A stretch of DNA of 64,000 nucleotides from Mariprofundaceae bacterium. GTDB taxonomy: Bacteria > Pseudomonadota > Zetaproteobacteria > Mariprofundales > Mariprofundaceae. How positions within the stretch are numbered: the stretch's first letter is position 1; each line of letters starts with the position of its first letter. Shown here piece by piece: positions 43,648 to 48,006 of the stretch. The position numbers and the translations under genes are program-made. The notes beneath the pieces were generated by a model. It made no database searches, was not told the DNA's origin, and saw only the letters and a list, made by a program, of their open reading frames with translations. The stretch is taken from the NCBI GenBank assembly GCA_021772895.1, contig JAJFLC010000001.1:62001-126000 (forward strand), written 5' to 3'.

Positions 43648-43896
43648 ATGTTTCCGGAATTCCGGGTAAATGCCGTTTCTCCTGCAGTTGTGAAGACGCC
43701 CATTTATGAATCATTCATTGAACCCGGCAAGATCGATGAAACGCTTGCTACGTTTGATGGATTTCATCCAATTGGACGGATTGGCACAACAGAAGATGTT
43801 GCCAATGCGATAAACTTCCTGCTCAGCGATGAATCGAGCTGGGTAACAGGTGCCATTTGGGATGTGGATGGCGGCGTCATCGCTGGCCGGAATTGA
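43648..43896 (+). pseudogene. Short-chain dehydrogenase C-terminal fragment
   Basis: An 82-codon frame reading [19 protein letters not shown], then [20 protein letters not shown], then [18 protein letters not shown]: the last third of a classical short-chain dehydrogenase. The NAD-binding and catalytic YxxxK parts are absent and TAA lies just upstream in frame. It is not the missing end of the 10.7-kb fragment in any obvious way. Expression is unlikely. Confidence 0.75.
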
Positions 43897-45150: not shown

Positions 45151-45239
45151 GTCTAACGCCCGCAATCACCGGGCCGCGACGGGTGATTGTTCATTTGAAA
45201 ACGCCCGGCTTCGCGACTCGGCGCATTGCATCGTTATGC
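45151..45239 (-). mobile_element. attC-like integron recombination site
   Basis: An 89-bp imperfect palindrome. On the minus strand it begins GCATAAC, whose TAA is the stop codon of the YdeI-like gene, and ends GTTAGAC, matching GTTRRRY. The arms GCAATGCGCCGAGTCGC and (reverse) GCAATCACCGGGCCGC pair with G-T wobbles, as expected of attC. The YcaQ-like gene starts just after it. Confidence 0.8.
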
Positions 45240-45836
45240 CTTTTTTGTCTTTTTGAAGCCAAAGCCCGGATTCTCTTCGCGGACAAGCATGTCCATGAAC
45301 TTTGCAAATCGTCTCTGTCTGGTTTCGGGTTTCTTTGCACTTGTCAATCCGTACGCGATGACATAACGACTCGATTTGTTAAGCGTTTCAAAAAACTGTT
45401 TCGCCTTCGGCTTGCTCTCCAGTGCTGCCAGGAAATCTGCGGGCACTTTCATTTCACTTGTCACATAGGCGTTCTCCCACCGGCTGTCCGCTTTGGCAGC
45501 ACGAATATGCACGAGCCCTGACTCCGTCATCCGACCCTCGCTTATCAAACGCTCTGCATGCTCTCTGTTCCTTTTTGACCAGTTGCTTCGCGCTTTCCGG
45601 GGAGTAATTCGCTGGAAATAGGCTTGGTCATCGATTGACTTTTTGACGCCGTCGATCCAGCCCCAGCACAGTGACTCAATCACGACATCGTCCCAAGTCA
45701 CGCTCGGAATACCAGTCTTTTTCTTGAATATCTTCACCCACAGCTCACTTTCGGTGGCGTGATTCACCTTGAGCCACTGGCCGAGATCTTTCGGCGTTGC
45801 AAAGGTCATGATTCTCGCTGGATCGGGTTCAGGCAT
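45234..45836 (-). CDS. YdeI/OmpD-associated family protein
   Basis: A 200-aa protein of the YdeI/OmdA family. SELWVKIFKKKTGIPSVTWD, CWGWIDGVKKSIDD, RITPRKARSNWSKRN and PADFLAALESKPKA are characteristic. The family has been linked to bacteriocin tolerance and contains a DUF1801-like domain; the biochemical role is unknown. The stop codon lies inside an attC-like site and its start follows another, so it is an integron cassette gene. Confidence 0.85.
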   Translation of the reverse strand: MPEPDPARIMTFATPKDLGQWLKVNHATESELWVKIFKKKTGIPSVTWDDVVIESLCWGWIDGVKKSIDDQAYFQRITPRKARSNWSKRNREHAERLISEGRMTESGLVHIRAAKADSRWENAYVTSEMKVPADFLAALESKPKAKQFFETLNKSSRYVIAYGLTSAKKPETRQRRFAKFMDMLVREENPGFGFKKTKKA

Positions 45837-45855
45837 GAAACTGGATTTTTTTTCG

Positions 45856-45940
45856 GCCTAACGGCTGCATTCATTTGCGCCACGATGAACTAACTGAAAC
45901 CCGCTGAACTTTCAGCGTCAAATGGAATAATTTGTTATGA
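45856..45940 (-). mobile_element. attC-like integron recombination site
   Basis: An 85-bp imperfect palindrome ending on the minus strand with GTTAGGC (perfect GTTRRRY) and starting TCATAAC. The arms TTCCATTTGACGC and (reverse) TTCATTTGCGC pair with an unpaired extra base, and a small central hairpin (CGCTGA/TCAGCG) is visible. It precedes the YdeI-like gene by 20 nt. Confidence 0.75.
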
Positions 45941-46329
45941 GCAAAATAGAACAGAAAATCCCGACTCCTTTGTATTGGCAGTGTGATTGTGGATGGTATG
46001 GCACTGCTGACAAAATGACAAAAGATACTTATTGCTGCCCTGATTGCGGCGGTTTTGACGACCCGGCTGCATGCGCTCGTTATGGAGATTCACGTCGCGT
46101 CCTTTCTCTGCTTCAAGAGTTTTGCTTCTTTAACCATTTTTCCGAAATCACGGCCCTGGGCACGTTTCTCAGCCAAAGTTGCTGTTGCCAAAGCATTCTC
46201 GCGCCGCAATTTCTGGTAATTAGCCAATCTGCGACTATCGAGTATATTCTCTTCTATGGCCTGCAGCACGGCACATCCAGGTTCGGTCACGTGATTACAA
46301 TCAGCAAACTGGCATTGCATCGCCAATAG
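45937..46329 (+). CDS. Zinc-ribbon-like small ORF antisense to the RsgA-like gene end
   Basis: The first 50 residues are protein-like and carry four Cys in ribbon spacing (CDCGW, then CCPDCGG) after MSKIEQKIPTPLYWQ; GTTATG of the adjacent attC provides the start codon. From about 46090 the frame runs antisense through the 3' end of the RsgA-like gene and is probably not conserved. It is either a truncated opposite-strand cassette gene or a chance frame; the Cys pattern argues for the former. Confidence 0.4.
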   Translation: MSKIEQKIPTPLYWQCDCGWYGTADKMTKDTYCCPDCGGFDDPAACARYGDSRRVLSLLQEFCFFNHFSEITALGTFLSQSCCCQSILAPQFLVISQSATIEYILFYGLQHGTSRFGHVITISKLALHRQ

Positions 46330-47145
46330 CTCGATGTCCTCGAAGACTGTTCCTATTGAGTGTTCGATTTCAGCCACCCTCAGCTCTCGTATGCCTGGGA
46401 CGTCAATAAGAAGCCCGCCGGAAGGTAGTTGGTGTAATTCGCGATGAGTTGTTGTGTGGCGCCCCTTCTTGTCTTGCTCCCGAATCTCGCTTGTTGCGGC
46501 CAATGGGTTCTCTGCAAGTGCATTTAGGATTGTGGACTTACCAACGCCAGAAGACCCCACGAGCGCTGCAGTAGAATTGTCGTCTATCCAGGCACGTACG
46601 CCATCTAATGTAGTAGGATCAAGGGCGTTAGTTGTTTCAACCGGCACACCAGCTTGAATGCTGCGTGCACGACTAATGTAGGTATCCGTATCATCAGTAA
46701 GGTCGGTTTTCGTAAGAACGATAACAGGCATCGCTCCCGCCTCAACGCACAATGTTAGATATCTCTCCAAGCGTGATTCTTTAAACTCTTCGTTGCAAGA
46801 TGTGACTATGAGCAAGGTGTCTATATTCGCCGCTATGGGCTGAATTTCAGTGCTACTACCCGCACCGATGCGCTTGAATAGACTTTTTCTTTCAAGCACT
46901 TGCTCAATTCTCGTAAGCGATTCATCAAGCACAACCCAATCGCCAACTGTCGGCCGATCAATTGCTGTAGCCTGTCGCAAGGTGGGCGACAGTTCTACCG
47001 ATCGCTTACCCGCATCGCAGATAACCGTGCTTTTCGAGCGTTGCACTGACGTTACGCGCCCTAGACAGTTCCCCGGTATACTCGTGCCCGCTATTTGTTG
47101 TGTAAAAAAGGGCACAAGACCAAGTTTTTGCAGTGCTTCACTCAT
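46090..47145 (-). CDS. rsgA: Ribosome small subunit-dependent GTPase A, RsgA-like (cassette-borne)
   Basis: Circularly permuted GTPase that helps 30S maturation. Motif order is G4 LTKTDL (Asn replaced by Thr), G1 VGSSGVGKSTILNAL, G3 DVPGIREL. The C-terminal zinc knuckle is CQFADCNHVTEPGC. It has an N-terminal OB region and 351 aa, close to E. coli RsgA. It sits between attC-like sites, an unusual location for a housekeeping GTPase, so it may be a second, divergent copy; a core copy would lie outside the window. Confidence 0.85.
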   Translation of the reverse strand: MSEALQKLGLVPFFTQQIAGTSIPGNCLGRVTSVQRSKSTVICDAGKRSVELSPTLRQATAIDRPTVGDWVVLDESLTRIEQVLERKSLFKRIGAGSSTEIQPIAANIDTLLIVTSCNEEFKESRLERYLTLCVEAGAMPVIVLTKTDLTDDTDTYISRARSIQAGVPVETTNALDPTTLDGVRAWIDDNSTAALVGSSGVGKSTILNALAENPLAATSEIREQDKKGRHTTTHRELHQLPSGGLLIDVPGIRELRVAEIEHSIGTVFEDIELLAMQCQFADCNHVTEPGCAVLQAIEENILDSRRLANYQKLRRENALATATLAEKRAQGRDFGKMVKEAKLLKQRKDAT

Positions 47146-47163
47146 AGTTGAGATCTATTATCT

Positions 47164-47252
47164 CCATAACGCTTTAATAACCTGACGCCGTGAGCGGAGG
47201 CCTGTTTTTTAGGCCGTAGCTCATGGTGGTCAGGTTGATTTGATGGTTAGGC
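47164..47252 (-). mobile_element. attC-like integron recombination site
   Basis: An 89-bp palindrome reading on the minus strand GCCTAAC at the start (perfect RYYYAAC, its TAA the stop of the upstream cassette gene) and GTTATGG at the end. The arms TCAACCTGACC and (reverse) ATAACCTGACGCC pair well; GGCCT/AGGCC makes the inner stem. The RsgA-like gene starts about 19 nt downstream. Confidence 0.82.
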
Positions 47253-47591
47253 ATTATATTTCTGCTCATCCAATAAATCTTGAAGCTGGTGATTGTTTTC
47301 AAACATAAATTCCACTCCTTTTGGGAGCAAGTTCCAACTACCTAAACCTTCTTTTTTGTTGTTTACTCTTTGAATGTATCCATGTTTCTCTAGATTTATT
47401 AATTTTAACTCAAGCTCAAGTGGTGCGTATTTGTCATGGTGTTCAGCCAGTTCACTAGTAGACATAGGTATGCCTGTTTCATAAGCGTCGTGAAGTAAGT
47501 ATGTCATAAAATATGCATCAGCATCGTCTGGCAAATATTTAATTGATTGCACTATTTTTTTGCCGGAGTCTTTTTTTGCTGCAAAATCCAT
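47247..47591 (-). CDS. Soluble winged-helix-like domain, possibly expressed as a frameshift fusion
   Basis: A 114-codon frame, MDFAAKKDSGKKIV onward, ending EQKYNA with its TAA in attC. IPMSTSELAEHHDKYAPLEL and LELKLINLEKHGYIQRV look like a winged-helix recognition region, followed by SWNLLPKGVEFM. No family is recognised. The apparent ATG at 47591 has no ribosome site and lies inside the upstream 34-codon frame; a -1 shift at A_AAA_AAG (47570-47576) would join that frame to residue 8 of this one and give a 136-aa membrane-anchored protein. Confidence 0.6.
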   Translation of the reverse strand: MDFAAKKDSGKKIVQSIKYLPDDADAYFMTYLLHDAYETGIPMSTSELAEHHDKYAPLELELKLINLEKHGYIQRVNNKKEGLGSWNLLPKGVEFMFENNHQLQDLLDEQKYNA

Positions 47592-47656
47592 GCAACAACA
47601 ACAGCTAGTATTGTTGCGAAAGCTCCAATTATTGCTGCTATTATTGATGATTCCAT
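47552..47656 (-). CDS. Small single-span membrane protein (34 aa) or fusion N terminus
   Basis: Reads MESSIIAAIIGAFATILAVV then VAWILQQKKTPAKK and a stop. The single hydrophobic helix covers residues 5-25 with a positive C-terminal end, an N-out/C-in anchor. It overlaps the next gene out of frame. Codons 27-29 (CAA AAA AAG) contain an exact A_AAA_AAG slippery heptamer, so the same ribosomes may produce both the short peptide and a longer fusion. Confidence 0.6.
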   Translation of the reverse strand: MESSIIAAIIGAFATILAVVVAWILQQKKTPAKK

Positions 47657-47673
47657 AATGTATTTATTATTGC

Positions 47674-47700
47674 CTAATGCCCGCGTTAAGCGGAAGAACT
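47674..47700 (-). mobile_element. Degenerate attC-like half site
   Basis: On the minus strand CCGCTTAACGCGGGCATTAG closely resembles the right arm and R' box of attC sites (GTTAGGC changed to ATTAGGC). A matching left arm is not apparent upstream. It marks the outer border of the cassette array. Confidence 0.45.
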
Positions 47701-47740
47701 AGGTAATAGCATGACTTGCTTTTCCATCTATTACGCTCCT

Positions 47741-47950
47741 TTATATGGACTTGATTTCCTTGCTATCGGATATTACGTTATCAATAAGGAATAAGGAGCC
47801 AGATTGCCGACATACCCATTGAAGGTCAATTCGAAAGCGAAATTTCGTCCTATCAATAGGGCCAGCTCGATTGATTGTAAATAATGCGTTCTTTCCTGCC
47901 TTCCATGCTATTGTGATAGTGATTATGAAGGGGTTGGATATACAGTCTTT
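47741..47950 (-). pseudogene. 69-codon open frame lacking a start
   Basis: An open frame on the minus strand from TGA at 47951 to TAA at 47741 with protein-like composition (TKFRFRIDLQWV, then SGSLFLIDNVISDSKEIKSI) and no ATG, GTG or TTG. It may be the tail of a broken cassette gene. Directly downstream AAAGGAGCG precedes a 13-codon frame MEKQVMLLPSSSA that ends inside the attC half site. Neither can be assigned a function. Confidence 0.3.
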
Positions 47951-47976
47951 TCAGCATTTAAGACTATTCATGTGAT

Positions 47977-48006
47977 AAAAAAACCGGGCTTAAGGCCCGG
48001 TTTTTA
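47977..48006 (-). terminator. Rho-independent terminator of ppiD
   Basis: Stem CCGGGC (47984-47989) with GCCCGG (47995-48000) around a five-base loop, with seven A before and five T after; bidirectional. It lies about 40 bp past the ppiD stop. Confidence 0.9.

Follow-up and report, generated by a model that had tools for sequence, protein, structure and literature searches.

A frame-broken orphan gene with tandem slippery heptamers in what looks like an integron-type cassette of a Mariprofundaceae bacterium

Do two overlapping reading frames on the minus strand of a Mariprofundaceae contig encode one protein or two and, if one, how is the break between the frames crossed? The sequence-only reading of this window (the whole stretch of DNA analysed here, 64,000 nucleotides) had proposed that a membrane anchor and a soluble domain are joined by a -1 frameshift on A_AAA_AAG. 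Its observation is confirmed, as the heptamer, its coordinates and the 136-aa joined translation are exact in the minus-strand sequence, and its interpretation is partly supported, as the two frames are one unit and probably a single protein. That reading lacked the second in-phase heptamer, the overlap TAGTG and the integron-type cassette context (Table 1), the last of which is the new content of the finding.

Table 1. Coordinates of the frames, junction elements and candidate cassette features in the window.
Feature	Positions	Strand	Description	Basis
Membrane frame, 34 codons, MESSIIAAIIGAFATILAVVVAWILQQKKTPAKK*	47552..47656	minus	Hydrophobic helix, then lysines	Translation
Heptamer 1, A_AAA_AAG	47570..47576	minus	In frame with ATG 47656; inside seven-A run 47577-47571, G at 47570	
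Heptamer 2, A_AAA_AAA	47555..47561	minus	Same phase as heptamer 1; abuts UAG	Sequence
TAGTG	47550..47554	minus	Membrane-frame stop sharing one base with soluble-frame GTG start	Sequence
Soluble frame, ATG-first ORF, 114 aa (MDFAAKK...)	47247..47591	minus	Winged helix predicted from ~residue 21	
attC-like site 1	47164..47252	minus	GCCTAACCATCAAATCAACCTGAC...GTCAGGTTATTAAAGCGTTATGG; GCCTAAC ... GTTATGG boxes, long imperfect hairpin, closes cassette	
attC-like site 2	45151..45239	minus	GCATAAC ... GTTAGAC; 3' of YdeI/OmdA-like gene	
Putative cassette, ~508 bp	47170..47677	minus	TTAGGC... to G/TTATGG cut	Inferred from sequence
RsgA-like GTPase gene	46090..47145	minus	Directly after attC-like site	

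Read on the minus strand from the ATG at 47656, the membrane frame proceeds to ... TTG CAG CAA AAA AAG ACT CCG GCA AAA AAA TAG, the TAG ending at 47552. The interval in which the frame could change extends from about residue 29 to this stop and contains two seven-A runs (47577-47571 and 47561-47555) nine bases apart. A -1 slip on A_AAA_AAG would give MESSIIAAIIGAFATILAVVVAWILQQKK followed by DSGKKIVQSIKYLPDD..., a joined product of 136 aa in the soluble frame ending at 47247, and a -1 slip on A_AAA_AAA (47561-47555) would enter the same soluble frame (...QQKKTPAKKIVQS); the trans-frame peptides for the two slips would be QQKKDSGK or QQKKTPAKKIVQ. Started instead at the GTG at 47552, the soluble frame is 101 aa long. 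The earlier argument that the ATG-first soluble frame has no ribosome site is true as far as it goes, but inspection of the sequence found no Shine-Dalgarno before any of the three candidate starts (soluble ATG 47591, membrane ATG 47656 and GTG 47552), the ribosome site of the membrane ATG being no better than that of the soluble frame.

Their surroundings support the view that the two frames form one unit: together the frames are the sole evident content of what looks like one integron-type gene cassette, with the membrane ATG 21 bases inward of the cut in the left core and the soluble-frame TAA (47249-47247) inside the GCCTAAC box of the candidate attC site at 47252-47164. Folded as DNA, this site forms a hairpin with an extrahelical (bulged) base, and the bottom strand is favoured (-18.4 kcal/mol, z -4.56) over the top (-15.5 kcal/mol, z -3.50). 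When the window was scanned for core boxes around one unbranched hairpin, this site and one other emerged (-36 to -45 kcal/mol), against a chance expectation of 0.03-0.05 per 64-kb window in 150 first-order Markov controls; the criterion cited for the scan is a site of up to ~107 nt with an MFE of -30 or lower, a looser one giving 0.75 chance hits per window. The attC core-box consensus is RYYYAAC and GTTRRRY, against which GCCTAAC fits and GTTATGG has two deviations at the first site, while at the second GCATAAC has one deviation and GTTAGAC fits. The left core reads ATTAGGC (47678), not GTTAGGC, and no attC-type fold was found at the left cassette end (z -1.4 and -1.25), which may be either a decayed attC or an attI. 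A further core-like site, GCCGTTAGGC, lies at 45862, before the YdeI-like gene. Between the first cassette and the terminator of ppiD, some 320 bp (47678-48000) show no clear gene; a decayed attI or attC may lie there.

The array (45151-47678 on the minus strand) consists, in order, of the frame-broken gene, an rsgA-like gene, a YdeI/OmdA-like gene and an AlkZ-like glycosylase gene. No match over cut-off to the integron integrase TIGR02249 was found in the genome, which gave only weak matches to distant tyrosine recombinases, as did control genomes. Clusters of attC sites without an integron integrase are known as CALIN, with a threshold of two sites (PMC9024848), and with its two attC-like sites and no integron integrase found in the genome the array looks like one of these. 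It shares with integron cassettes and CALIN the stop in the first core box, the bottom-strand-favouring hairpin, a second site in the same orientation 1.9 kb on, the accessory genes and the lack of an integrase over cut-off; it differs in that the right core GTTATGG and the left core ATTAGGC depart from GTTRRRY, and in being short.

The cassettes sit here downstream of ppiD. Several of the family's other genomes, including one from the same genus, have tRNA-Ala and then a trpE-like gene (named from its translation) after ppiD, and still other genomes have different genes there. The RsgA-like protein is ~44% identical in its N-terminal part to rsgA of a same-genus genome, and this, together with the changed ppiD neighbourhood, fits acquisition of the cassettes. 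With the N-terminal query, the RsgA-like gene was the genome's only match, and it may be an acquired rsgA that acts as the sole copy. Near a core-like site, a small ORF on the plus strand (45937-46329) has cysteine pairs like those of a zinc ribbon (CDCGWYG...CCPDCGG); it has no Pfam match and may be a cassette gene that lies the other way round. Beside the array, the plus strand at 43648-43896 carries a truncated short-chain dehydrogenase gene that retains just a C-terminal fragment (matching adh_short_C2 at profile positions 166-235 alone).

Many cassette genes are orphans, and within the collections searched the frame-broken gene is one by sequence comparison. No usable homologue of the joined 136-aa protein was found in genomes of the genus, family and class, in 399 genomes of the phylum, or among genome contigs, plasmids, phages and viral contigs, the genome contigs having also been searched with a degenerate profile (A1) of conservative query substitutions, whose rows after the first are artificial. 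Three weak matches from the genus and family were rejected, two (L003, L005) because they appear to be Rrf2/NsrR-type regulators and one (L004) because it lies in an unrelated frame. Neither half alone had a homologue in these searches; the anchor matched only itself, and in plasmids and phages a low-complexity filter may hide matches to it. The description of the first seven soluble residues as out-of-family filler presupposes a family, and none was found.

What the protein might be is suggested by its translation and a structural model. The membrane part is one strongly hydrophobic helix (GRAVY 2.8 over residues 5-25), the lysines following its first 29 residues, and this arrangement suggests an N-out, C-in topology. 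A single-sequence AlphaFold2 model of the soluble frame gave helix-helix-helix-strand-strand-helix (pLDDT 71.9, pTM 0.59), with low confidence over residues 1-20 of the ATG-first ORF and the winged helix beginning after them. The best PDB matches of the model were MarR family regulators (E 4.9e-4, TM-score ~0.5), and the soluble part is accordingly described here as a predicted MarR-like winged helix. Among profiles, there was no convincing Pfam, NCBIfam, PHROG or PADLOC family (none over cut-off in Pfam or NCBIfam), the weak match being to LexA_DNA_bind (E 0.023). The predicted fold, the best PDB matches and this weak profile match are what it shares with MarR/PadR-type winged helices, from which it differs in its low identity (~17%), in the TM-score of ~0.5 from a single-sequence model and, if the halves are joined at all, in its N-terminal membrane helix.

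To judge how unusual the heptamers are, in-frame occurrences were counted in 50 long ORFs of the 64-kb window (18,419 codons). With five A_AAA_AAG and 12 A_AAA_AAA, about 0.009 and 0.02, respectively, would be expected in 34 codons, and the presence of both in the membrane frame is unusual and above chance. The cassette is, however, A+T-rich (GC 0.37 vs 0.46 for the window), the linker is rich in lysine, and A runs are also natural sites of indels, which makes the heptamer weak evidence for slippage as against deletion.

We favour the reading that one gene was broken by the deletion of one A, and give it about an even chance of being right. The original product would have been a single protein of ~136 aa, in which a short charged linker connects a membrane helix at the N-terminus to a MarR-like winged helix in the cytoplasm; one A would then have been lost from one of the two adjacent seven-A runs, breaking the frame, which ribosomes would restore at a low basal rate at most. 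Such a deletion would account for everything with a single event. The start and stop of the gene bound a single cassette, which an attC-like site closes, and the low-confidence residues ahead of the modelled winged helix appear to behave as a linker would. Frame-shifted orphan singletons found with GeneTack, which resemble this locus in having adjacent overlapping frames and no homologue and differ in that here a slippery heptamer lies at the junction, are expected to be gene overlaps in 33% and sequencing errors or indels in 67% of cases, and 4010 pseudogene clusters were reported in the same study vs 146 recoding clusters (Antonov et al., 2013; PMC3711429). The A may have been lost by real mutation, the cassette gene being an orphan, or else through an assembly error; the assembly does not handle homopolymers badly in general, with 22 A/T runs of at least seven bases lying well inside the window's long ORFs, which makes a plain sequencing error less likely and a real mutation likelier. 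Against a deletion stand the failure to find a continuous-frame homologue and the two correctly phased heptamers, which in 34 codons exceed chance. Standard decoding, with no frameshift, would suffice if the locus instead encoded two coupled proteins: a membrane peptide of 34 aa with a single helix, and a soluble winged helix of ~101 aa for which ribosomes would reinitiate at TAGTG (or start at the internal ATG). The exact overlap of stop and start speaks for such coupling, the modelled winged helix starts well past the GTG and would be kept whole, and small membrane toxins are similar in size and charge to such a peptide, a lead only. Integron cassettes usually hold one ORF, and a pair in so small a cassette would be less typical; this counts against coupling, as do the missing Shine-Dalgarno before the GTG and the internal ATG, the weakness of a GTG start relative to ATG and the lack of a homologue of either half alone. 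Several of the candidates of Antonov et al. (PMC3711429) gave reinitiated downstream products and not frameshift products, and the third of orphan cases expected as gene overlaps also favours coupling, which we nevertheless consider unlikely.

A programmed -1 slip on A_AAA_AAG or A_AAA_AAA, yielding the 34-aa membrane peptide together with a fixed share of a 136-aa anchored winged-helix protein, has the least support among the three main readings, and we regard it as improbable. The heptamer is an exact member of the strongest E. coli class (PMC4066793), a second, in phase with it, precedes the stop, and programmed slips are said in PMC3711429 to occur mostly in mobile elements. A stem (GGCAAA/TTTGCC) begins ~5 nt past heptamer 1, with -7.8 kcal/mol and, in the best of several windows (51 nt), z -2.28; over 71 nt and 121 nt z is -1.06 and -0.07, not significant. 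By eye, the upstream sequence (GTTGCATGGATTTTGCAGC) contains no GGAG/AGGA-like word that could act as a Shine-Dalgarno stimulator, and unstimulated E. coli heptamers reach at most ~10 times a background of 0.055%, i.e. ~0.5% (PMC4066793). Such heptamers are moreover ordinary in the window's long ORFs, and A_AAA_AAG is found in 68 E. coli genes (PMC9307594). What the locus has in common with dnaX and IS3-type -1 frameshifting is A_AAA_AAG, followed after 5 nt by a possible stem and at close range by the stop of the short product; here, in contrast, the Shine-Dalgarno stimulator is absent, the stem weak and the gene an orphan. The earlier comparison with dnaX therefore overstates the site, since dnaX has stimulators that are missing or weak here, and the programmed link it served finds no support beyond the heptamer itself, with a marginal stem, no stimulator, heptamers common in intact-looking ORFs of the window and no homologue found. 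A basal slip of less than ~1% is likely in any case, but would not amount to a programme. The two seven-A runs, nine bases apart, would also permit slippage at the transcript level or an A tract subject to phase variation, the frame being restored in some transcripts or cells by an A added by the polymerase or in replication; against this are the 22 equal runs inside the window's long ORFs and the length of the runs, seven bases being short for efficient slippage, and we think it very improbable.

The finding mainly sets an orphan gene, probably encoding a single protein, in an integron-type array without an integrase, and it illustrates that a lone heptamer is weak evidence where many ordinary genes of a genome carry one. 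No integron cassette gene with recoding is known to us, and a literature search on such genes found no paper. That this mobile cassette gene has two products, a small membrane peptide and a membrane-tethered winged-helix regulator made by a -1 slip at the tandem heptamers, is quite doubtful; a genuine slip would add integron cassettes to the classes of mobile element that use recoding, and the ribosome would set the ratio of the peptide to the membrane-bound regulator.
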